DNA of 64,000 nt from Asticcacaulis endophyticus. GTDB lineage: Bacteria; Pseudomonadota; Alphaproteobacteria; Caulobacterales; Caulobacteraceae. Of the stretch, positions 10,348-21,400 are shown piece after piece. The stretch lies in contig NZ_BMZB01000001.1 of NCBI RefSeq assembly GCF_014652575.1, positions 1,757,470 to 1,821,469 on the forward strand, given 5' to 3'. A program made the translations under genes and the position numbers. The notes beneath the pieces are model-generated. The model did not search any database, was not told the DNA's origin, and saw only the letters and a program-made list of their open reading frames with translations. The stretch's first letter is position 1, and the number at the start of each line of letters is the position of its first letter.

Positions 10348-10439
10348 GGAGACGTGGCCGAGTGGCTGAAGGCAACGGTTTGCTAAATCGTCGTACCCTG
10401 TAAGGGGTACCCAGGGTTCGAATCCCTGCGTCTCCGCCA
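10348..10439 (+). tRNA. tRNA-Ser(GCU)
   Basis: A full class II tRNA is visible. The acceptor GGAGACG (10348-10354) pairs with CGTCTCC (10429-10435). The D-arm TGGCCGAGTGG, the anticodon loop with GCT at 10382-10384, the long variable arm built on GTACCC/GGGTAC-type pairing, the T-arm GGTTCGAATCC and an encoded CCA (10437-10439) are all present. The long extra arm and the GCU anticodon give serine. The 3' end, including CCA, is duplicated at 21358-21374, so this gene is the integration site of the island that follows, and the insertion leaves the tRNA intact. Confidence 0.96.
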
Positions 10440-10466
10440 ATCACTTTTTTTATCAATAAATTCAAT
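10423..10466 (+). repeat. attL: tRNA 3' end half of the island's flanking direct repeat
   Basis: The 17-bp core TCCCTGCGTCTCCGCCA (10423-10439) is the 3' end of tRNA-Ser and recurs exactly at 21358-21374. Similarity continues beyond the core: TCACTTTTTT and AATAAATTCAAT follow in both copies with a few mismatches and a 1-bp length difference, giving an imperfect repeat of about 44 bp. This is the footprint of tyrosine-integrase recombination into a tRNA gene. Confidence 0.9.
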
Positions 10467-10856
10467 TGGTTTGCGTGGTGCTGCACCGGCATTGTCTGCA
10501 AATAGTCTGCAATTTGTCTGCAATTCATTCACAGGTTAATCCACAGGGGTGGCGTAAATCATTTACGCCATGCAGTGAAAATTCCCTGCATCTATGATGG
10601 TGAGCGCGAGTTGGAGTGGTTGCGTGCCTGTGAGCCGACATGTGTTCCACCTGATGTCTCCACAAATTATTAGGGCTTGAGGATGCTAGGCTGCGAGAAA
10701 GTCGAACGGCTTCCAAATCAGCGCGGCTCTTATTTCGAGACTTTGCGCATCTCTCTTTCTCAACCTTTCCGCCAGAACCGCCTCAAATCAACTTGACGGC
10801 GTAGCGGGCAAATCATACCAGAAATGTAGGCGCGGGGCTGCGATTCTGGGGGATTT
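10440..10856. other. Gene-free left end of the island
   Basis: No convincing gene lies here; the short open frames lack ribosome sites and recognisable products. The stretch holds the rest of the left attachment repeat, the three GTCTGCAA boxes (10494-10523), a short palindrome GGCGTAAATCATTTACGCC (10551-10569) and the leader of the acyltransferase gene. A promoter for that gene must lie in the second half. Confidence 0.6.
10494..10523 (+). repeat. Left integrase arm-type sites: three GTCTGCAA boxes, 11-bp spacing
   Basis: Boxes start at 10494, 10505 and 10516, all in the same direction and exactly 11 bp apart, about one DNA helix turn, 55 bp inside the core repeat. The same triple occurs at the right end (21255, 21266, 21277). 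Paired, helically phased short repeats on both sides of a crossover core are what arm-binding sites of a lambda-type integrase look like. Binding has to be inferred. Confidence 0.8.
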
Positions 10857-12011
10857 ATGGCGTGGCAAGGCTATCGGACTTTGAGCAAGGTCTTGTCTGA
10901 GGCGGACAATAGGCCAAGCGGTTTCGACTATATGCGCCTCATCCTGTCGGTGGGCGTTCTGGTCAGTCATTCCGTCCTATATAACTACGGTGATCCGGCA
11001 GGCTTTGCGTTTTGGGATAGTCCGGCAAGGCCTTTCCTTAAATGGCTCGTGCCGATGTTCTTTGCCCTGTCTGGATTTCTGGTGGCGGGCAGTCTTGACC
11101 GTTCAAAAAGCGCAATCAGTTACATGGGCCTGCGGGCTATCCGGATATTCCCTGCTCTGGCGGGGCTGGTCATCGTCACGGCGTTTGTAATTGGCCCAAT
11201 GACAACATCACTGCCATTGCAGGCGTATTTCAAAGACAGCGAGTTTACGCGCTATCTCATGGGCGTGTTTGGGCATTTGGGCTTTACGTTGCCGGGGGTG
11301 TTCACAGACCTACCCTATCCAAACAATGTCAATTCTCAGCTCTGGACAATACCTTACGAGATCAAAGCCTATTTTATTCTGGGCGTCTTGATGGTTTTGG
11401 GAGTTTCAAAGCGCGGCTATCTGGCTTTATTGGCGGCGGTTGCATTGTTGGGACGTGATCTGTTCAGGAAGTTTTCAGAAGGATCAACCTTTGAAGCCCC
11501 TATGAGCACCGGCGGGGAATTTCTCATGCCGCTGTTTCTGTGTGGGGCGGGGCTATATTTCTATAGGGCTTGGGTGCCCCATAACCTGCCACTGTTCGTT
11601 CTATCCGCCGCCCTGTCGGTGGTGTTCCTGGGTTATGTCAAAGGTGGTGAATATATCGCCGTACTGCCCACGGCATATGTAACTGTCTATCTGGGTACAT
11701 TGAACCCTAAGCGCACCGGTGTCAGTGCGATGGGGGATTATTCATATGCGATCTATCTGTGGGGCGGGGTTATCCAGCAAGCCGTAGTTTTTGCCTTCCC
11801 GGAGCACCGGGAATGGTATTGGAACCTCTTAATAGCTACGCCAATATGTCTCATGATTAGCTGGCTGTCTTGGATGCTTGTTGAAAGGCCCGCCATGACT
11901 CTCAGGCGACCGCTGGCAGCGATTGAAGGGTTTTTGCTAGGTGTGTGTGCCCAAGTCCATAAACGCGCTGTAGCGTGGTTTCAGGTCAAAACCGGAACGG
12001 TGCCGGATTAA
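10857..12011 (+). CDS. Acyltransferase 3 family membrane protein (OafA/YrhL-like)
   Basis: This 384-residue polytopic protein has about ten hydrophobic helices. The N-terminal part (FDYMRLILSVGVLVSH, about residues 23-38) carries the conserved Arg and His of acyltransferase-3 proteins, and PMFFALSGFLVAGS (65-78) is the typical second-helix motif. Such enzymes O-acetylate or O-succinylate sugars of LPS, capsule or exopolysaccharide at the inner membrane. The ATG at 10857 follows CTGGGGG at a good distance. It is the first island gene and stands alone on the plus strand. Surface-sugar modification is a common cargo of phages and islands because it blocks phage adsorption; that role is inferred here. 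Confidence 0.85.
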   Translation: MAWQGYRTLSKVLSEADNRPSGFDYMRLILSVGVLVSHSVLYNYGDPAGFAFWDSPARPFLKWLVPMFFALSGFLVAGSLDRSKSAISYMGLRAIRIFPALAGLVIVTAFVIGPMTTSLPLQAYFKDSEFTRYLMGVFGHLGFTLPGVFTDLPYPNNVNSQLWTIPYEIKAYFILGVLMVLGVSKRGYLALLAAVALLGRDLFRKFSEGSTFEAPMSTGGEFLMPLFLCGAGLYFYRAWVPHNLPLFVLSAALSVVFLGYVKGGEYIAVLPTAYVTVYLGTLNPKRTGVSAMGDYSYAIYLWGGVIQQAVVFAFPEHREWYWNLLIATPICLMISWLSWMLVERPAMTLRRPLAAIEGFLLGVCAQVHKRAVAWFQVKTGTVPD

Positions 12012-12231: not shown

Positions 12232-13365
12232 CTAGCGTTTACCGGGTTGAGGTAAACCTCCCCGAAGTTTATCCCAACCATCCTTTGCTAAGCGTCGCAT
12301 CTCATTTGAGGCAGCGAATATCTTTTTGTTGTCATCACTCTGATCTGGGAAAAGCTTGTGTCTGGTGATGTTCATGGCTTTGACAGCGTAAGAAGCCCAA
12401 ACAAAGGGATCATTAAGAGGCTTTGATTTTTGCTGATGATACTGAGCCTTGTCATGATCCCATTTCCCACCGGCAATCCTTAGAGCTTGGTCAACATGTA
12501 TTTGTGCATCCGGAACGGATGGTAACACCACCGCCCCATGCAAATGATATGTCTTAGTTTTCCTGGAGTATTCAAGAATGAACCAGAACGGGAGAACAGT
12601 ATCAAGGGCATCCATAAACGCTTTGCGTATTCTGTCCTGCATATAGGGAGCAGGCCCTTTGGAAGATGTCATGGCTTGCTGATGCACGTTGGGACTTAGA
12701 TGTAGGTTTATGGTTATACCACCGGAGATATGACTTTGATGAGACATAGCCATGATCTTCAATGTGCTAGATGTCTTATCCCAGCAAGGTAACGTGTAAT
12801 CTCGTAAGAGTGGTTTATCTGTAAGAAATGACAATACTAAAGGCGCTCTACCGAGTTGCCCGCCTCGTTCGCATTTCCCAATAATATCAAGGAATACTTT
12901 ATCTTTTTGCGGAACCCTGCGTACGGGTTGCGGCGCAAGTTTGGACACACCACCGACCAATTTTTTACGGCGTGAACATGCCACTGCCGCGATCTCACGC
13001 TTGAGGCAGTGCTTATTCAGTCGCTTTTGTTGCCGTAGCTCTTCACGTCTTTCTCGTGCCTCTGTACGGTTTTTATCCCTTCTCTCGATTGCCTCTTTAA
13101 GAGCGGCGTTTTTGGCAAATACCTCCGGGCGGGGGTGGCGGCTCCGAACCGCCTCGCCATATGCCTTTTTATGGGTGGATTTGAACCTCTCTTTTGCATA
13201 TGCCTCACCATAAAGCTTACGCGCGGCGCTTCGTTTTAGTGGTTTGGGGATGTCGTGCAAAAAGTCTTCAATGCCCGCAGTTACGTCTGCGGGCAGTGTC
13301 AGGCCGTAGCCTGCATCTGTGTCATACATTAGTTTTCGAGTGATATAGGTGGGTATGTAGCCCAT
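12232..13365 (-). CDS. HUH-endonuclease-like replication protein (Gp2/YagK-YfjJ style), tentative
   Basis: This 377-residue basic protein has a highly charged, probably helical coiled segment at about residues 85-125. The C-terminal half reads like a replication initiator of the HUH class: a beta strand GGITINLHL (215-223), a hydrophobic-HLHGAVV strand (His274-Leu-His276, the metal-binding HUH motif), and a helix with WASYAVKAMN (Tyr326 and Lys329, a YxxK catalytic motif). This arrangement is known from inovirus Gp2 / YagK-YfjJ-type proteins on small mobile elements. Upstream (13674-13747) lie 21-bp tandem repeats that could be its binding sites. The start at 13365 has only a weak ribosome site, and Met13 is an alternative. 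I am confident the gene is real and less sure of the function. Confidence 0.62.
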   Translation of the reverse strand: MGYIPTYITRKLMYDTDAGYGLTLPADVTAGIEDFLHDIPKPLKRSAARKLYGEAYAKERFKSTHKKAYGEAVRSRHPRPEVFAKNAALKEAIERRDKNRTEARERREELRQQKRLNKHCLKREIAAVACSRRKKLVGGVSKLAPQPVRRVPQKDKVFLDIIGKCERGGQLGRAPLVLSFLTDKPLLRDYTLPCWDKTSSTLKIMAMSHQSHISGGITINLHLSPNVHQQAMTSSKGPAPYMQDRIRKAFMDALDTVLPFWFILEYSRKTKTYHLHGAVVLPSVPDAQIHVDQALRIAGGKWDHDKAQYHQQKSKPLNDPFVWASYAVKAMNITRHKLFPDQSDDNKKIFAASNEMRRLAKDGWDKLRGGLPQPGKR

Positions 13366-13673: not shown

Positions 13674-13747
13674 CTGTCAACTTAGCGTAAACAACTGTCA
13701 ACTTAGCGTAAACAACTGTCAACTTAGCGTAAACAACTGTCAACTTA
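13674..13747 (+). repeat. 21-bp tandem direct repeat, 3.5 copies (iteron-like)
   Basis: Units begin CTGTCAACTTAGCG and start at 13674, 13695 and 13716, three exact copies of 21 bp. An 11-bp partial fourth copy (13737-13747) stops six bases before the stop codon of the serine recombinase gene. Exact repeats of two helical turns beside a Rep-like gene and an AT-rich stretch are the classic look of plasmid iterons. No spacers separate the units, so this is not a CRISPR array. Confidence 0.85.
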
Positions 13748-13752
13748 TGCCC

Positions 13753-14313
13753 TCATGACACACTTTCTGTTTCAGTGAGCATACGGTAGACTGACGCGCG
13801 TCCTATACCTAAACGCTTTGATATCTCGGTGGCACCTACGCCATCATTTTTCATGGTTTTAACAAGGGTGGCGTCGATAGATTTGGGGCGTCCGTTATAT
13901 CTTCCCTGAGCTTTGGCTTTATCTATGCCCTCGCGCTGACGCTCTTTACGCAGTTCGGTTTCAAACTCAGCAAAACTGGCAAGGATGTTCAGCATCAGCC
14001 GACCTTCGGCTTTGGTGGTGTCTAATCCGCTCTGTTGGAGGCACCGGAAATCCACGCCCTTAGCCGCTAGTCGATCAATGATCTGCCTTAAGTCAGTTAT
14101 CGAACGGGCCAGACGATCCAGACGCGTGACCACAAAGATGTCGCCTTCTCTTACATAGTCTAATGCGCGTTCCAGCTCTTCACGCCCGGTTGTGGACGTG
14201 CCGCTCTTTTTCTCCGCAAATATCTTTTCGCATCCGGCGGCGCGTAGCTGGTCTAATTGAACGTCAAGTGATTGTCCGCTGGAGCTGACACGGGCATAGG
14301 CAACTAGGGTCAT
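13753..14313 (-). CDS. Serine recombinase, resolvase/invertase family
   Basis: This 186-residue protein is the normal length for small serine recombinases. The N-terminal catalytic domain opens YARVSSSGQSLDVQ, with nucleophile Ser10. The arginine-rich VTRLDRLARSITDL (62-75) and the helix-E region ILASFAEFETELRKERQREG follow. Residues about 145-180 form a Hin-like helix-turn-helix (GATEISKRLGIGRASVYRML). It should bind short dyads and catalyse resolution or inversion. GAGAC/CCTTAT dyads lie on both sides of the gene. It is divergent from the PD-(D/E)XK gene, so its upstream region may also serve that gene's promoter. Confidence 0.93.
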   Translation of the reverse strand: MTLVAYARVSSSGQSLDVQLDQLRAAGCEKIFAEKKSGTSTTGREELERALDYVREGDIFVVTRLDRLARSITDLRQIIDRLAAKGVDFRCLQQSGLDTTKAEGRLMLNILASFAEFETELRKERQREGIDKAKAQGRYNGRPKSIDATLVKTMKNDGVGATEISKRLGIGRASVYRMLTETESVS

Positions 14314-14318
14314 TCGAA

Positions 14319-14436
14319 TGTCTCATAAGGTTTATAACCCTGAGACCTTATTGTCCCAAAAATGCGGCGTCAACCCAAATGAGACACATGGCGTGGGATT
14401 TAGAGACGCCTCATAGGGGTATAGTCTTACGAGACA
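14319..14436. promoter_or_regulatory. Cluster of GAGAC/GTCTC words upstream of the serine recombinase (possible res site)
   Basis: Between the divergent recombinase and PD-(D/E)XK genes, GTCTC or GAGAC occurs at about 14320, 14342, 14381, 14403 and 14431. ATAAGG (14325-14330) and CCTTAT (14346-14351) form a 27-bp dyad, close to the 28-bp crossover site size of serine resolvases. TGTCTCAT (14319-14326) and ATGAGACA (14379-14386) form a wider pair. The region could be a recombination site, an autoregulatory operator, or both. Confidence 0.5.
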
Positions 14437-14562
14437 TCGTCGTTCGGTGATGCCAAAATTAGTAGCTGCCTATAATAGCGTTGGGTTGTTATTGCTAATG
14501 TTTCTATTTAGAGGCATTGTTTTTGATGCGCTGAACAATGCTGTAACCGCTCCGGAGTGGGT

Positions 14563-15993
14563 ATGAAATCTTTTTCAAGGCCAGTACTATTCTCTAGTTA
14601 TTTCAATTTACCGCCTGAGATTTTACGAGAGCATCGGTTTATCGATCCATTTCTGAATGTTGACACACCACTTTTTATTGATCCGGTTTTGCTCGATAAA
14701 TCAGCAAATGACGTGATCCGTAATGAAGCGTATGACACCTTCAAAACTCGTTTTGAAACAGTACTGAGATTGTTAAAGATATCCGCGCGCGAGGGGGACG
14801 CAGCGTGGAAGGGGGCGCAACGGCAGCTTCCACTTGACGAAGCTCTTTCTAACGGCTTGGGGTATGGATCGGGCGAACGTAATGGTACACGTCGCTCGGA
14901 TGAAATCCGAGATGCCATTTTGCGAACATCGAAAGAGATTTTGGCGTTAGGAGCGGAGGACCCGGAAATGATCTCGCTGATGGCGTTTTTCGAAGAGGAT
15001 GTTGGGCCTGACACCATTAGCGACCTGACGACCAGTTACATTGAACCGCAACTTGCCAAAATCACACAGCAGTTCTGCGCCGAGTATAATATTGACGTAA
15101 AAACCTCTAAATCGTCACCTGTCCACGCGCTGCCTCACTATAAGTATGCGAATGGACGCGAGCGAGGGATTGTGCTCGTGCCTCTCGATATTCTTCAAGA
15201 CCTACCAATTGCGAATGATTGGTCGGATGTAGAGCGAGCGGCTAGCGCAAATGATGCAATCCGTCGCCGCGTGAGCGAGTTCCTTTCAGCTATTGCTAAA
15301 CCGACCGTCACCGATAGGAAGGCTGCTATCCGATCTGCCGCACTGCAATCTGCAGAATTATTCAACGCGTTTGTCGCTGCACTGAAGGATGGTGCCGAAA
15401 GTTATGACCCGAACTCAGATGCTCTAGGTTATTTTACCTTTCGCCAATTGCTAATGAAGATGCCGGATAAAATGAAGGGGCAAGGCCCCTTTAATGTCTC
15501 TAGTGGCATCGAGGAAATGGAGCGAGTGGTAAAAGGCACCATCGATATGTTTCGGCATCACGTCGAGGATGGGAATTTGTGGGAGATGCTATGGGGAGAC
15601 GGCAAACCCAAACGTGAACGAGCTTCGCAGTTACTGTACTTTGCGATTGCTGACTCATTTTGTATAGCGAATAACATAGATATTTCACCAGAAGCTCATA
15701 TGGGGGGAGGCCCAGTAGACTTTAAGTTTTCGAAGGGATACGAGGCTAGGATCGTCGTCGAGATCAAGCGTTCAAGTGGTCAGGTGGTCCACGGATATGA
15801 GAAACAGCTTGAAGTATACAAGGCCGCCAGTCGAACTGAATATGGGATATTCATCGTTATAGACTACGGGGATGGCGACGAAAAAATAAAAACCATCTTG
15901 GAAATCCAGCGTCAGCGCCGAGCGGCGAAAGAAAATGCCTCAGAAATCGTCATAATTGACGCTAGTCAAAAGGCTTCGGCAAGCAAACGCTGA
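14563..15993 (+). CDS. Unrecognised protein with C-terminal PD-(D/E)XK nuclease domain, candidate defence gene
   Basis: I chose ATG 14563 because CCGGAG lies five bases upstream; a GTG two codons earlier overlaps that site. The product is 476 residues. Roughly the first 370 match no family I know; they are helical and charged, with an N-terminal stretch FIDPFLNVDTPLFIDPVLL. The C-terminus shows a restriction-nuclease fold: PVDF (Asp386), then VVEIKR (Glu400, Lys402), then QLEVY (Gln415, Tyr419), so it has the D-ExK catalytic set with the QxxxY motif of Cas4/RecB-like nucleases. No helicase, NTPase or methylase motif is seen. It lies in an island next to a restriction-type gene with its own promoter region. 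The real substrate and trigger are unknown. Confidence 0.8.
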   Translation: MKSFSRPVLFSSYFNLPPEILREHRFIDPFLNVDTPLFIDPVLLDKSANDVIRNEAYDTFKTRFETVLRLLKISAREGDAAWKGAQRQLPLDEALSNGLGYGSGERNGTRRSDEIRDAILRTSKEILALGAEDPEMISLMAFFEEDVGPDTISDLTTSYIEPQLAKITQQFCAEYNIDVKTSKSSPVHALPHYKYANGRERGIVLVPLDILQDLPIANDWSDVERAASANDAIRRRVSEFLSAIAKPTVTDRKAAIRSAALQSAELFNAFVAALKDGAESYDPNSDALGYFTFRQLLMKMPDKMKGQGPFNVSSGIEEMERVVKGTIDMFRHHVEDGNLWEMLWGDGKPKRERASQLLYFAIADSFCIANNIDISPEAHMGGGPVDFKFSKGYEARIVVEIKRSSGQVVHGYEKQLEVYKAASRTEYGIFIVIDYGDGDEKIKTILEIQRQRRAAKENASEIVIIDASQKASASKR

Positions 15994-16197: not shown

Positions 16198-19100
16198 TTA
16201 CCTTTTCAGGGCCTTCATCGCCTGTGTGATAGCCACTGTCTTCATGCTGACCGTGGTTACCCGCTGCAGGAGGTCGATCACCTGTTCCTTATAGTCGGCA
16301 AAGCGGTAGGTGTTGAACTTTTCGCGGATGGTTTTGTCCTTGGGCGTCTTTTCTTTGTATTGATCCAGCACCCAATCGATGGCCGAACGGTTGCCGAGGC
16401 GGTAGTTATAGGCCTCAGGCGGGACGCCGGTGAGTGCGGTCTCAGAATCCAGGGTGATGGTGCCCGCCGCCGGATCGGATTTCAGCTTGGGCGCAGGCTT
16501 AAGCCCGGCCCCGTGCGCCTTAAGGTCAGGCGTATCGGTGCGCGTCAGGCCAAACGGTTCAACGCTTTCATAGCCGATATGCAGTTCGAGCAGAGTCTGG
16601 CCCCAGTCGCACCATTGGGTAAAATCGTCATAGAGCGGCACGCGCGGAAAGTCGCGTTTCAGGTTCTGCGTGTATGTGTCGCGGTAGACGGGATCATGCA
16701 GCACGCCGTAGCAATAGGCAAAGATATCGTCCTTTGTTACTTTGCCCTTACCGTATCTCGCCTCAAACTGTTTCAGGCCCCAGTCGGTAATATTGTCGAT
16801 TGGCTGGCCTTCGGCGGTATAGCGATAACGGGGCACGCCCTGAGTGCCGCCATTACCCTGCTTTAACAGACAAAGATCAAAGACCTCTTTGACTCCGAGT
16901 ACAGACAAAAGATTGCTTGAGGCCATACCGAGAAAAGCAATTGTTGGATTCGCTATCCCAGGCGGAAATGTACTTGGCAGTTGGTATGTCATCCCATTGA
17001 AATGCTTGTCAAAATACAACCACATTGAGGTGTAGGGTCGGTAGGCAGCCAAGCGGATCGCTTTTGGATCATAGCTTTTGATCACGCCGGAACGGAGATA
17101 TTTCTCAAGCTCTCGATCCCATTTCAGGCTGTCCTTGTCAAAACCGTCAGTCCCTTTACGCACGGACTCGTAGCCTGCGACCATCAACAACATTTTGGCT
17201 TCGAGTGTATTTTTGTCAAAATCCCACACCCAGTCGTCGCGCTGAGTTTTCAAGCCACTGGAAAACAGCTTGAAGATGGCTTTTTCTTGCCCCTTGGCCT
17301 TGGCCGTCTTAGTGATCTTGTCCGCCAGCGGGATCAGACTATCCCAGTCATTGTCGGTCAGGTTAAGCCAATTGCCCTTTTTATCAGGTTCAATTCTTTC
17401 CATGGTTAAGCCGGACAGACGCTGGGATGCCAGCCAGGCCAGCTTGTCTTCGGCTGTATCCATCTCCGGTCTACGGGCATAGAAAATCTTGCAATCTTTC
17501 GATTTTGCTCTTTTTACCATGAAGAAAATAGATACGCCGGTCTGGATGCCAAAGACATTGTGCTTGGTACCGGACAATTTAGGATTATCACGCACATCGC
17601 CGCCCAGATCGACGACCCAGATTTCGCTAAACTCCTTCGCGACCGCTTTGCGGAACCCATTATAAGAGTCTTTGGCAAAGGGTTTGCGTCCGGTGATAAA
17701 GGTAATGATGCCGTCCTTATCAACGCGATCAGAGGCCCAGCGGATAAAGCGCGTGTACATGTCGTAAACGCTGTTCTGATTCTGCGAAGTGCCTTGCTTG
17801 ACATAGGTGTCTTTAATCCGCTCATCGATGCGTTTATAGGCCCGATTAGGATTGCGATTACTAAAGCTTTCCTGCCAGGCATTATATGGCGGGTTGCCGA
17901 TGACGACGCTGATGGTCTTCTGGTTCTGGCGCTTAACGCGGGCGACGTTCTCATCGGAAATGGCGCCAAACAGGTCGTGCTGATAGCCGGAATGTAAGCC
18001 AAGGGCCGCGACATTATCCAGCGTATCCACAAAACATAAGCTCGGGTATTCGGCAAATTGCCCCGAAGCCGCAGCATAGGTCGCTTCGATGTTCAGATTG
18101 GCGACATAATAGGGCAGGATGGCCACTTCGTTGGCGTGCAGTTCTTCCTTATACTTGCGGGCCAGCTTATCCGGCTGGCCTTTGAAATAGTCGATCAGCT
18201 CACAAATAAAGGTGCCGGTGCCTGTGGCCGGATCAAGGATTTGCACGTCCTTATCGATCAGGCCGCGCCCGAAATGCTTTTGCGTCAGAAAATCCGCGCC
18301 TTCGATCATGAAACGCACGATCTCATTGGGCGTATAGACGACGCCTAAGCGGTCGGCGGCTTTGGGATTATAAACCTTATAGAAGTTCTCATAGATGACC
18401 TTGAGAAAGGTCTGTTTCTCAGAATGGTTGGTGATCTGGGCGGCGTTGGCGCGAATGGCGGCGTAATAGGCCTCCATGGCCTTGAGCGTTTCGCGCTTAA
18501 CCGGGCCTTTAAAGAAATGGCCCTCCAGCTCATACAGCGATTTGGCGATGTTGTTTTCGCGATGGAAATCGCCTTCGTTAAAGACGTGGGCGAAAATTTC
18601 TTCGGTCAGGATGTGCTGAATCAGCATTTCGCGCACATCAATTTCCGTGACCGCTGGATTAATGGTGGCCTTGGATTGCGCCAGAAAGGCCGCCGCCGCG
18701 GTCTGAAAGGGCTCATTGGTGGCATAGGCGTCGTCGATACGGTTGCGCAATGTCTCAAGCACCGCCGGCAGGTCGTGCTTGAACTGCGCCACCGCCTTGC
18801 GGAAGTCGGCAATTTCCTGACGCTCATAGCCAAAGAACAGGGTCAGGAGCTTACCCAGTTGGGCGACGTCCTGCATGTCCGCGCGCCACACCTCCTGACG
18901 GTTCTGGTACAGAATGGCCGTGTGGGCGTTCTCAAAAATGATATTGTCCTGCGGGTAGCCTTTGAGGAACTTTTTGCGGATTTCGTCCTCAAGGTCGTCG
19001 GCGGTGTCCTTGGCCTCCCAGTAGCCTAGGGGTACGCGCAGGTCATGCAGGACCGTGCCATCAGGAATGATGGCCGTCTTTTGTACCGACTGCATGCGAA

Positions 19101-19251
19101 GTTCAGCGACAAAGATAAGGCCAGATTGCCGTGCCCAGTTTTTTAGCAGATCTTTGAAGGCTTCTCGGATGACCGTTTCCGAGAGAGAACCGGACACCTT
19201 TTTCAAGGTGGTCAGTTCGTTAAGAAACTGCTGGATCAGTATCTGGCTCAC
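16198..19251 (-). CDS. Single-chain restriction-modification-type nuclease-methyltransferase (Type ISP/IIG-like, no helicase)
   Basis: This 1017-residue protein begins at GTG 19249-19251. An N-terminal PD-(D/E)XK nuclease is suggested by IPDG (Asp64) and GYWEAKD (Glu79, Lys81). An N6-adenine methyltransferase follows: VYTP (305-308), SAM motif DPATGTGTF (340-348) and catalytic NPPY (453-456). The C-terminal third resembles the target-recognition domain of Type ISP enzymes such as LlaBIII, including YRLGNRSAIDWVLDQYKEK. Type ISP proteins normally hold a helicase between nuclease and methylase and reach about 1600 residues. I find no Walker A or DEAD box here, so the domain plan is closer to a Type IIG enzyme. 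It would methylate one adenine pattern and cut unmodified DNA. Confidence 0.87.
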   Translation of the reverse strand: MSQILIQQFLNELTTLKKVSGSLSETVIREAFKDLLKNWARQSGLIFVAELRMQSVQKTAIIPDGTVLHDLRVPLGYWEAKDTADDLEDEIRKKFLKGYPQDNIIFENAHTAILYQNRQEVWRADMQDVAQLGKLLTLFFGYERQEIADFRKAVAQFKHDLPAVLETLRNRIDDAYATNEPFQTAAAAFLAQSKATINPAVTEIDVREMLIQHILTEEIFAHVFNEGDFHRENNIAKSLYELEGHFFKGPVKRETLKAMEAYYAAIRANAAQITNHSEKQTFLKVIYENFYKVYNPKAADRLGVVYTPNEIVRFMIEGADFLTQKHFGRGLIDKDVQILDPATGTGTFICELIDYFKGQPDKLARKYKEELHANEVAILPYYVANLNIEATYAAASGQFAEYPSLCFVDTLDNVAALGLHSGYQHDLFGAISDENVARVKRQNQKTISVVIGNPPYNAWQESFSNRNPNRAYKRIDERIKDTYVKQGTSQNQNSVYDMYTRFIRWASDRVDKDGIITFITGRKPFAKDSYNGFRKAVAKEFSEIWVVDLGGDVRDNPKLSGTKHNVFGIQTGVSIFFMVKRAKSKDCKIFYARRPEMDTAEDKLAWLASQRLSGLTMERIEPDKKGNWLNLTDNDWDSLIPLADKITKTAKAKGQEKAIFKLFSSGLKTQRDDWVWDFDKNTLEAKMLLMVAGYESVRKGTDGFDKDSLKWDRELEKYLRSGVIKSYDPKAIRLAAYRPYTSMWLYFDKHFNGMTYQLPSTFPPGIANPTIAFLGMASSNLLSVLGVKEVFDLCLLKQGNGGTQGVPRYRYTAEGQPIDNITDWGLKQFEARYGKGKVTKDDIFAYCYGVLHDPVYRDTYTQNLKRDFPRVPLYDDFTQWCDWGQTLLELHIGYESVEPFGLTRTDTPDLKAHGAGLKPAPKLKSDPAAGTITLDSETALTGVPPEAYNYRLGNRSAIDWVLDQYKEKTPKDKTIREKFNTYRFADYKEQVIDLLQRVTTVSMKTVAITQAMKALKR

Positions 19252-19415: not shown

Positions 19416-21245
19416 TTATTGATAACCGGACAGTCTTAGGTGTTTCATGCTGCGGTCTGGCAAATTTAAACCTTCATATTGAACAAGGTTGATTGCCCGC
19501 TGCAAAGCTTCAATGTCTTGAGCGAGATGCAGATATGTCGAGTCCATCCCCGCCTGTGTATGCCCCAGAATTTCGTTTTGAAATTGAGGGCTTACACCGC
19601 ACATAGCCATCCGAGTTTTAAAGACGTGGCGTAGTGAATATAGGGTCGGTTTAGGTTTCCTTGCAGTGATTGCCCGTACCAGTTTTTGGTTAAATTGGTT
19701 GCACCAGCTGGCAGAGGAGTAGAGCTTCATTTCATTCGATGACTTTTTCCATTTTGGGAACAGACGCGGTTGACCGGTTTTACGAACTTTTTCCACATAA
19801 GCCGAAAATCCAATCCGAAGAAGCTGGGGGTGTATCGGAATGCGGCGCTTTGCATTGTCTGATTTACCAGATAGCACAAATGGCTTGTCGTCAGGATCGT
19901 TAGGATCATATTCCGTTAGAATGTCTATATAAGGTACTTTGGTTTCTAATTTAATGTCACTTATTGCTAGCTGAGCGATCTCACTGACACGCGCACCAGT
20001 GAACAGCATAAGCAGGGGTGTCCAAAATGCCTCGTCATCAACTTGGTAGTTGCCCGGAGTGAGTCGGAAGTGACTTGACCTACATCCGCGATAAAGCGGA
20101 AGCGCGAAGAGCGCATTAAGTTCATGGGTGTCAAATATCGTTTTCTTCGTGTTGCGTTTGGCTCCTTCCACAGTTGTATTTGCGAATGGATTTTCAGAAT
20201 AATCGAGTTCGGCTACTGCGTAGGAAAAAACCTTTCGCAAAGGCCCGATATATCCATTCTTGACAGTGTTGGGGGCAATCGTCGGATATGGTTTGGAACG
20301 CTTATTGTTGGCCTCGGTCGCGCCGGTGAGCGACATTCCCGGAAAATACTGGGTGGCGTTTATTGGGGCTTGGAGTAGGAATCTAGTGAATGATTTTACC
20401 TTTTTACGGTCTATTGAAGTGGCTAGCTTTGCAGCGCCATTATAGTCTTCGAATGTCGCCACCGCTTTCTTAACTTTATCCAACCAAGCCGGTTTAAGCT
20501 TATTATTCTTGATATATTCTTCAGATAGGCGTCTTAGTGACCACTCAATTTCAAGCGCAAGGTTGATTGGCGGCGCGCCGGGAGAATATCCGGGAGGAAA
20601 CATGTCGCCGGGTTTCTTGTCGTATCCGGCGTGGTAAGCGCGTAACCTAGCCTTCACGATTGCCTTTTCAATGAGTTTATAATTGGAAGAGCCTATTTCT
20701 ATGCCACGCTTACGAGCCTCATCTTCTACAAGATGATCGGTATCTGAGGTAAATTCCTTGAGAAGAAATCTTTTATGTCTGGCATCATCAAGAGCCTCAT
20801 CGACTGGATTTCCATTTACGTCAAGACGGCGAACAGGAGCGTAACGAGTGGCCTTAAATTCCAACTCGTCCGCAGCGAACTCGTCCGTCTCCGCACGTTG
20901 TTCTAGTTCAGTATCCCTTTGAACAAATTCACGAAAATACTGTTCCGATAGCCTATGTAAAAAGCTATCAGTCAGATTCACGGGTTCGGCTGATGGAGCC
21001 AACGGTGTAGCTGAGGCAATTGGTTTGCTGGGTGCCCATTTGAGAGCTTCGGCACAAATCCGGTCAAACTCCCTATCTTTTTCGATGGCTCGGCTACGAG
21101 CTACCCGAATGTCTGATGTTCCAAGAGAAATTTGAAACTTCAGACCTTTATCGAAATCAGTCAGTCTGGTGACTGTAACTGGATAACGTCGCTCATAGTG
21201 ATAAGTTGATCCACGTTTTTTGATATAGTTTTTAACAGTAGCCAT
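19416..21245 (-). CDS. Tyrosine-type site-specific integrase of the tRNA-Ser island
   Basis: Translation from ATG 21243-21245 (MATVKNYIKKRG) gives 609 residues; a TTG-initiated extension to 21308 would run through the arm-site boxes and is less likely. The N-terminus looks like an arm-binding domain, the middle (about 240-330) like a core-binding domain, and the C-terminus holds the catalytic set: ARVSEIAQL (first Arg), YSLRHVFKTRM (His-Arg region), LGHTQAGMDSTYLH (His and nucleophile Tyr). It is longer than most integrases and has a large insert-rich N-terminal half. The promoter overlaps the right GTCTGCAA boxes, so the protein may repress itself. It should join the tRNA 3' core sequences at 10423 and 21358. 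Confidence 0.92.
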   Translation of the reverse strand: MATVKNYIKKRGSTYHYERRYPVTVTRLTDFDKGLKFQISLGTSDIRVARSRAIEKDREFDRICAEALKWAPSKPIASATPLAPSAEPVNLTDSFLHRLSEQYFREFVQRDTELEQRAETDEFAADELEFKATRYAPVRRLDVNGNPVDEALDDARHKRFLLKEFTSDTDHLVEDEARKRGIEIGSSNYKLIEKAIVKARLRAYHAGYDKKPGDMFPPGYSPGAPPINLALEIEWSLRRLSEEYIKNNKLKPAWLDKVKKAVATFEDYNGAAKLATSIDRKKVKSFTRFLLQAPINATQYFPGMSLTGATEANNKRSKPYPTIAPNTVKNGYIGPLRKVFSYAVAELDYSENPFANTTVEGAKRNTKKTIFDTHELNALFALPLYRGCRSSHFRLTPGNYQVDDEAFWTPLLMLFTGARVSEIAQLAISDIKLETKVPYIDILTEYDPNDPDDKPFVLSGKSDNAKRRIPIHPQLLRIGFSAYVEKVRKTGQPRLFPKWKKSSNEMKLYSSASWCNQFNQKLVRAITARKPKPTLYSLRHVFKTRMAMCGVSPQFQNEILGHTQAGMDSTYLHLAQDIEALQRAINLVQYEGLNLPDRSMKHLRLSGYQ

Positions 21246-21254
21246 ATTAGAATT

Positions 21255-21284
21255 GTCTGCAATTTGTCCGCAAAATGTCTGCAA
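21255..21284 (+). repeat. Right integrase arm-type sites: three GTCTGCAA/GTCCGCAA boxes, 11-bp spacing
   Basis: Boxes start at 21255, 21266 (one base different) and 21277, with the same orientation and 11-bp period as at the left end. They lie 74 bp inside the right core repeat and right before the integrase start codon. In a circular form the two sets would sit on both sides of the joined core, giving an attP with symmetric arms. Confidence 0.8.
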
Positions 21285-21357
21285 TTTAATATAACTTAAT
21301 TGTTTCAAAACAAATAGTTATTAAAAATCATCCACATATGATGAAAGTGGCGGAATC

Positions 21358-21400
21358 TCCCTGCGTCTCCGCCATTCACTTTTTTCCAAATAAATTCAAT
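21358..21400 (+). repeat. attR: second copy of the tRNA-Ser 3' end
   Basis: TCCCTGCGTCTCCGCCA (21358-21374) repeats the tRNA end exactly, and TTCACTTTTTT and AATAAATTCAAT (21389-21400) continue the similarity. The rest of a tRNA is absent here, so this is only an attachment-site remnant marking the right island end. What follows should be the original chromosomal sequence downstream of tRNA-Ser. Confidence 0.9.

Follow-up and report, generated by a model that had tools for sequence, protein, structure and literature searches.

Shedu (SduA) is a single protein that contains an N-terminal control part followed by a PD-(D/E)XK tail; in a review, the N-terminal clamp was reported to bind DNA ends and the PD-(D/E)XK domain to nick at a fixed distance (PMC12904381). 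In another study, PD-(D/E)XK domains were found in 13 of the 31 validated E. coli systems, and one of 24 units with remote defence homology and a negative predicted score was protective, six of the units being PD-(D/E)XK proteins (PMC13092281). The interval between the integrase gene (int) and psu in P4-like satellites was described as a reservoir of antiviral systems and an antiviral hotspot; when 18 systems from the interval were cloned and challenged with the phage panel of that study, seven gave protection (PMC9122126).

Two further entries of the public collections are close to the protein studied here. The NCBIfam model NF058535 describes EruA, a large NACHT protein of 1318 model positions, whose antiphage label rests on the name given by NCBI to the model, since no title on antiphage EruA was among the literature matches listed. 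PADLOC contains the phage-defence candidate PDC-M36A (PDLC04597/04598), in which a head with FIDP, LGxS and DxISD motifs is followed by a PD-(D/E)XK tail. A literature search for 'PDC-M36' found no paper.

In our study, we analysed a stretch of 64,000 nucleotides from Asticcacaulis endophyticus (Caulobacteraceae), hereafter called the window, in which one gene encodes a protein of 476 residues with a head and a putative nuclease tail. The nearest named kin of this protein are PDC-M36A of PADLOC and DUF8370 of RefSeq. The gene probably encodes a nuclease that acts as a single-gene defence system, or in competition between elements, and that is controlled by its head; we gave this reading a probability of about 0.72.

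The Gene and Its Mobile Island

The reading frame of 476 codons was intact, as described in the original prediction, with an ATG at 14563 and a stop codon at 15993. A GGAG sequence was present 5 nt 5' of the ATG, and an in-frame GTG was found at 14557. The gene and its parts, all on the + strand, were as follows.

14563..15993, +, gene of the 476-residue protein with head and PD-(D/E)XK tail (open reading frame; full-length phrog_30194 match; 42 aligned members)
14563..15387, +, head domain, about residues 1-275 (alignment of 42/42 members and model of the head alone; boundary approximate)
15505..15990, +, nuclease tail, about residues 315-476 (alignment across differing heads; VIA-align matches in 280-470)
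15718..15720, +, codon of D386, PD motif (translation and alignment)
15760..15768, +, codons of E400-x-K402 (translation and alignment)
15805..15819, +, codons of Q415-x3-Y419 (translation and alignment)

The gene was located on an element of about 11 kb at a tRNA-Ser gene, between the tRNA and the integrase and inside direct repeats. The following features of the element were found.

10348..10439, +, tRNA-Ser (gct), the insertion target
10423..10450, +, left attachment-like repeat, at the 3' end of the tRNA
10857..12011, +, acyltransferase-3 O-acetyltransferase of the island (Pfam, PHROG match)
12232..13365, -, 377-residue protein that matched no family, with an HLHG motif at residue 274 (Pfam; likeness to Rep inferred)
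13753..14313, -, serine resolvase/invertase, divergent from the nuclease gene (Pfam)
16198..19251, -, restriction-modification enzyme of type ISP (match to Type_ISP_C at E 4.9e-87)
19416..21308, -, tyrosine integrase encoded by the island (Pfam domains Phage_integrase and DUF6538)
21358..21385, +, right attachment-like repeat, 27/28 identical to the left one

The GC content was 46-52% within the island and 55-63% outside it. Four of the 24 other genomes of the genus were inspected beyond the tRNA-Ser (G447, G540, G476 and G455); each contained the core repeat once, and of the six island proteins they possessed a relative of just one, the acyltransferase (52%, G455). The placing of the gene on a mobile island was borne out by the 27/28 repeats, the integrase and the drop in GC. 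The island was missing at the matching stretches of these four close relatives, and the large neighbour that had been called a restriction-modification-type enzyme was identified as type ISP. No Psu was found in the window, and its island is not a P4 satellite. The 377-residue protein had no Pfam, NCBIfam or plasmid match; its HLHG motif, which we take to resemble the motif of HUH replication proteins, suggests a Rep-like protein. O-acetyltransferases can change phage receptors.

Several short repeats were also observed on the island. Periodic 11-nt repeats (TGTCTGCAATT-like) were present at 10480-10536 and 21241-21297, adjoining both attachment repeats, and are perhaps arm sites of the integrase. 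Tandem repeats of 21 nt were found at 13674-13747, directly downstream of the resolvase gene, and several TGAGACA/TGTCTCA-like motifs were found at 14314-14440, between the resolvase and the nuclease gene in the upstream region of the latter, where they are possibly the resolvase's own site.

Relation to Named Families

The original prediction stated that the N-terminal part matched no family. This was true of Pfam, in which the window protein matched no family, but not of three other collections: phrog_30194 matched the whole protein (E 1.2e-166), PADLOC PDC-M36A matched residues 13-189 (E 7.7e-12), and the RefSeq product name 'DUF8370 family protein' was found on some E. coli relatives. The phrog_30194 match conveyed a single piece of information, that of a cluster of unknown function. 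The E. coli copies named DUF8370 were full-length members in which all the listed head and tail residues were kept; DUF8370 is a name without a function and was absent from the matches in the copies of Pfam and NCBIfam used. The newness of the protein had been overstated, as the homologous PDC-M36A is already listed by PADLOC as a defence candidate.

The profile alignment (hhalign) between the family and PDC-M36A extended over 392 columns across head and tail, with a probability of 99.8 and an E value of 2.3e-29, and D386 and E400-x-K402 were aligned opposite the D and ECK of the sister. The heads are homologous, whereas the tail of PDC-M36A is a separate branch (GRKRID...ECKNY), and the window protein meets the PADLOC model in the head alone. 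This alignment, together with the tree, indicates at the level of sequence that the family and PDC-M36A are one head-plus-nuclease superfamily with two deep branches. The 'A' of the name suggests a PDC-M36B partner, and a PADLOC scan of five further proteins of the island, at E <= 1, gave no match under that name.

The C-terminal domain of EruA was found to be homologous to the tail of the window protein, where positions 1146-1278 of the model matched residues 316-441 (E 1.6e-6). The match scored 26.6 bits where the model's cut-off is 1000, which points to a shared domain and not to membership of EruA, and the window protein contained a head of 300 residues instead of a NACHT domain. A protein of 1358 residues at another locus (L038) matched the window protein's tail with an E value of 2.9e-8. 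The best match of the EruA model among 42 members (E 1.2e-150) was assigned to L038 by protein size, and by that size it is probably an EruA-like NACHT protein with the same tail. Another head on the same tail was found at L009, which is probably the member with a weak squalene-hopene-cyclase-like match (E 0.0093). In two further loci (L064, 9038-10492; L065, 9047-10477) the tail was 41-42% identical to that of the window protein and the heads were different.

The window protein appears by analogy to be built like Shedu, yet it contained no DUF4263 (Pfam) and had no SduA match at E <= 1 (PADLOC). The Q-x3-Y that follows E-x-K in Cas4/RecB nucleases was present as Q415 and Y419, and the three weak profile matches included the Cas4 chain 4r5q (E 0.39) and 4ic1 (E 0.37), which is listed as 'uncharacterised' and which we take to be Cas4. 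Cas4 contains four Fe-S cysteines, whereas the window protein contains two cysteines in total, C172 and C367, and therefore has no four-cysteine Fe-S site.

Conservation and Predicted Fold of the Nuclease Tail

The 42 aligned family members included the window protein itself and some proteins only about 20% identical to it. D386 and E400 were each conserved in 40/42, K402 in 42/42, and all three together in 40/42; Q415 was conserved in 40/42, Y419 in 41/42 and E335 in 42/42. The motif positions D386, E400, K402, Q415 and Y419 were exactly those given in the original prediction, and their conservation shows that the pattern did not arise by chance. The exceptions at D386 and E400 were two plasmid copies, from Legionella (L005) and Calothrix (L008), whose C-termini were longer, altered and degenerate. 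In an alignment of 13 tails, six of which are on other heads (L064, L065, L009, L041, L042 and L038), the residues E352, E377, G383, D386, E400, K402, Q415 and Y419 were invariant in 13/13. Every head and tail residue tested was kept in seven copies from E. coli. A member split into several frames was observed on a viral contig (L069, 4937-6418).

The full AlphaFold model (23 sequences) had a pLDDT of 80.4 and a pTM of 0.67. In this predicted model D386 opened the strand 386-389, E400 and K402 were within the strand 398-403, and the latter was followed by the helix 408-422, which bears Q415 and Y419. D386 and E400/K402 were placed on successive strands by the order of the elements. Among the best 50 VIA-align rows, in which Can2 and BspD6I each occur more than once, the tail was similar, with Z values of 4.5-6.2, to restriction enzymes, Can2/Card1, Shedu and McrC: Ecl18kI at Z 6.2 (rmsd 3.7, 142 aligned), OkrAI at 5.9 (4.2, 137), Can2 at 5.8 (4.6, 125), Kpn2I at 5.4 (4.4, 156), the Shedu nuclease domain at 4.9 (4.2, 118) and McrBC at 4.5 (4.5, 106). 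The two best rows were the Wolbachia CinA-CinB and CidA-CidB complexes (Z 6.9 and 6.5), which presumably hold PD-(D/E)XK domains, and, to judge by their titles, many of the 50 rows are PD-(D/E)XK nucleases. Unrelated proteins were also present, namely acetyl-CoA carboxylase (4.8), folliculin (4.4), ArsA (4.1) and an RNA polymerase subunit (3.9). All the Z values were below 8, so the assignment of the fold rests on the motif and the order of elements together. Foldseek of the full model against PDB and BFVD gave no match at E <= 0.001, and neither the window protein nor A4, A5 and A7 gave anything credible against the sequences of solved structures. The conserved residues and the model support a predicted PD-(D/E)XK-like nuclease domain in the tail.

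The Head Domain

The head contained seven residues, D34, P41, E93, G100, G108, D150 and D154, that were invariant in the 42/42 aligned members, and the same seven were invariant in an alignment of 33 heads that included the PDC-M36A sister group. These residues stayed in L005 and L008, in which D386 and E400 were lost, and the head therefore likely has a job of its own.

Residues 1-305, folded alone (AlphaFold, 33 sequences), had a pLDDT of 83.2 and a pTM of 0.81. Foldseek of this head model against PDB gave no match at E <= 0.001, and VIA-align gave no row at Z >= 5, the best being Z 3.5 over 56 residues, a result that does not by itself establish a new fold. A head that is confidently folded in prediction and has no PDB match is a candidate new sensor. 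We tentatively propose, with the odds against the combined claim, that the head may have a fold not seen before, in which D34, E93, D150, D154 and the LGY..G.G loop would form a ligand-binding or catalytic site, and may at the same time be a self-contained sensor of invaders that predates its linkage to one nuclease. The greater age of the head is suggested by the two deeply split PD-(D/E)XK tails that one head carries, in the window family and in PDC-M36A, by the intact heads of L005 and L008, whose nuclease part has decayed, and by the movement of the tail to NACHT and other sensors.

Distribution and Transfer

In the phylum sample, 18 of the 398 genomes were found to match, that of the window included; eight of the matches were full length, eight were head only (one of them a fragment of 59 residues) and two were tail only. 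In the family sample 8/299 genomes matched, six with full-length copies and two with the head only, and no other genome of the genus was among the eight. Relatives were present in eight of 72,556 plasmid records and at 24 IMG/VR loci, whereas a tblastn search of the phages collection gave no match for the window protein or for the protein of L055. The closest kin in the tree was a Nitrosospira plasmid protein (61% identical, support 0.97), which, with the Caulobacteraceae host of the window gene, points to a transfer between classes. The HfsE of the host likewise suggests a relative of Caulobacter. The family is spread between hosts by phage satellites, plasmids and integrative elements.

Relatives in P4-Like Satellites

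A recurrent neighbour of four loci (L053, L055, L057 and L068) was identified as Psu, the polarity suppression protein of satellite P4. The identification was made from the protein of L053, which matched solved chains (E 2.1e-70) and to which those of L068 (3.2e-80) and of L055 and L057 (about 9e-8) were matched in turn. In all four loci the order was integrase, family gene and psu, and in L053 and L068 the family gene was the sole long frame between integrase and psu. Psu was near 4/41 family loci, and was found in 0/30 sister, tail-only or set-aside loci and in 0/16 control stretches.

Of 5,426 E. coli genomes, 13 matched the L053 gene and 17 matched the L068 gene. Seven E. coli regions, picked non-randomly from the matches listed, were opened. 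Five of the seven contained the order int, gene and psu, and in four of these (L178, L182, L183 and L184) the gene was the sole annotated cargo. The last three were nearly one element, L183 and L184 being 99.8% identical. In the fifth region (L180) other genes, one of them an AAA ATPase, were present between the family gene and psu, and the remaining two (L179 and L181) were mobilisable islands with no psu in view. A DUF3226 protein accompanied the ATPase in L180 (8525-10233), and the two may resemble an ATPase-plus-TOPRIM defence pair. The proteins of the L178 and L182 types were 22-34% identical to the window protein, so their function may differ.

The placement between int and psu was found in relatives and not in the window gene. 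The residence of relatives in this slot is the strongest clue for the defence reading. The systems that three studies list or test may already include this family (PMC13092281, PMC12904381, PMC9122126).

Proposed Function and Alternatives

In the proposed mechanism, the C-terminal PD-(D/E)XK domain would cut DNA with D386, E400 and K402 as the putative active site, and the head would hold the nuclease inactive in healthy cells. On meeting a trigger specific to the invader, which might be a DNA end, a nucleotide or a protein of the phage, the head would then release or aim the nuclease. In slots where the gene is the sole cargo, without a methylase or an antitoxin, the check between self and non-self would have to lie in the protein itself. 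The defence reading is supported by the conserved catalytic set, by the likeness of the tail model to restriction enzymes and defence nucleases, by the homology of the tail to EruA, by the same tail on several other heads, by the profile homology to PDC-M36A, by the satellite slot and by the patchy spread in the phylum and family samples. Against it count the loss of D386 and E400 in L005 and L008, with the head kept, the low Z values of the tail model with unrelated proteins among the rows, the slight PADLOC enrichment, the island of the window, which is not a P4 satellite, the near identity of L182-L184 and the low identity of the E. coli proteins to the window protein, the two E. coli regions with no psu in view, and the single protective unit among 24 in the study cited above (PMC13092281). 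The plan of a single-gene defence nuclease, put forward in the original prediction, gained weight from the tail on the EruA-like NACHT protein and from the relatives in the int-psu slot. If this reading is right, the widely scattered DUF8370 family would join the single-gene defence nucleases, and PDC-M36A, a bare candidate in PADLOC, would gain a nuclease mechanism and a superfamily. The idea is testable at once in a laboratory strain, since relatives are sole cargo in the E. coli P4 hotspot, and the modular combination of sensor and effector is testable by domain exchange because one tail is carried by the window head, the EruA-like NACHT protein and other heads.

The neighbours of the 41 family loci bear on several other explanations, and 18/41 loci end within 5 kb, so that the neighbour counts are lower bounds. 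A tyrosine integrase was found within 5 kb in at least 14/41 loci and a serine recombinase in at least 4/41 (clustering alone gave integrases at nine loci, and sequence and profile searches raised the count to 14). The four loci with psu contained the gene abutting the integrase or starting no more than about 120 bp from it, and the copies of L049 and L047 adjoined phage terminase or tail genes. These positions would suit a nuclease in the service of the mobile element, where it would process DNA as the element integrates, excises, replicates or transfers, and not defence; the types of element vary, however, from plasmids and P4-like satellites to mobilisable and tRNA islands, the tail is common to the EruA-like NACHT protein, and in P4-like satellites the place next to int is a variable cargo slot and not core (PMC9122126), which makes such a service quite unlikely. 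An orphan restriction endonuclease is unlikely as well, either of type II or modification-dependent (type IV, Mrr/McrBC-like) with a head that reads modified bases. Five of the 42 members of a mixed set matched Pfam Mrr_cat weakly (best E 9.7e-4), the ECKNY tail suggesting that these five are PDC-M36A sisters, and the VIA-align rows included McrC and MspJI. An ordinary type II system is opposed by the scarcity of methylase-like genes, which four methylase queries found within 5 kb at 3/41 loci (L005, L006 and the window); the head had no match to a known base-reading fold, which excludes nothing, and a type IV enzyme would itself be one form of the proposed defence nuclease.

The toxin of a toxin-antitoxin pair is a far less probable reading. 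Two relatives (L003 and L005) were near toxin-antitoxin genes, and an ORF of 68-85 residues recurred upstream in L035, L066 and L067; these three, however, are close relatives of each other, no small partner recurred at diverse loci among ORFs of at least 50 residues within 5 kb, and in four E. coli satellites the gene was annotated as sole cargo. That the gene is degraded or unused, without present function, as its accessory nature and island location might suggest, is scarcely credible with an intact frame and every key residue present. The gated defence nuclease remains the preferred reading.

The original prediction proposed a survey of homologues for enrichment beside known defence genes. 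The enrichment in PADLOC matches was slight. We compared 98 ORFs of at least 150 residues from 13 loci with 98 of 170 control ORFs, taken from 10 of the 16 random stretches (five of ten ORFs in L177); the genomes of 3/13 loci were without a control. Pfam found Phage_integrase in five neighbours, Resolvase in two and a terminase nuclease in two (25 of 87 families listed), and none of these three was among the 25 families listed for the 98 controls (of 135); rare families fall outside both lists. At E <= 1e-20, PADLOC matched at most 8/98 neighbours against at most 4/98 controls, a weak signal. The neighbours matched were an AbiP2-like reverse transcriptase, SoFic, type II methylases, PDC-M37B, DolB and one general enzyme, and 15 of the 22 PADLOC models came from the one reverse transcriptase; the controls matched mad3 in three cases and mad8 in one.

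Recurrent neighbours formed 23 clusters in at least 3/41 loci, a good number of which consisted of frames that overlap. The 41 loci do not include L008, L009, L064, L065 and L069, or loci with the head or the tail alone. No partner gene was common to diverse loci among ORFs of at least 50 residues within 5 kb. Identity searches gave no result for the 300-residue protein of L055 and the 85-residue ORF of L066, and a protein of 534-558 residues recurred at L047, L066 and L067. The recurrent neighbours identified were the tyrosine integrase, the serine recombinase, Psu, ThiC and, weakly, an Arc/AmrZ-like protein (E 1.2e-4). The thiC gene was found beside the family gene or about 1 kb from it in three genomes of one bacterial family (L097, 7176-9185; L098, 6893-8893; L099, 5738-8077), where this neighbourhood is perhaps an insertion site.
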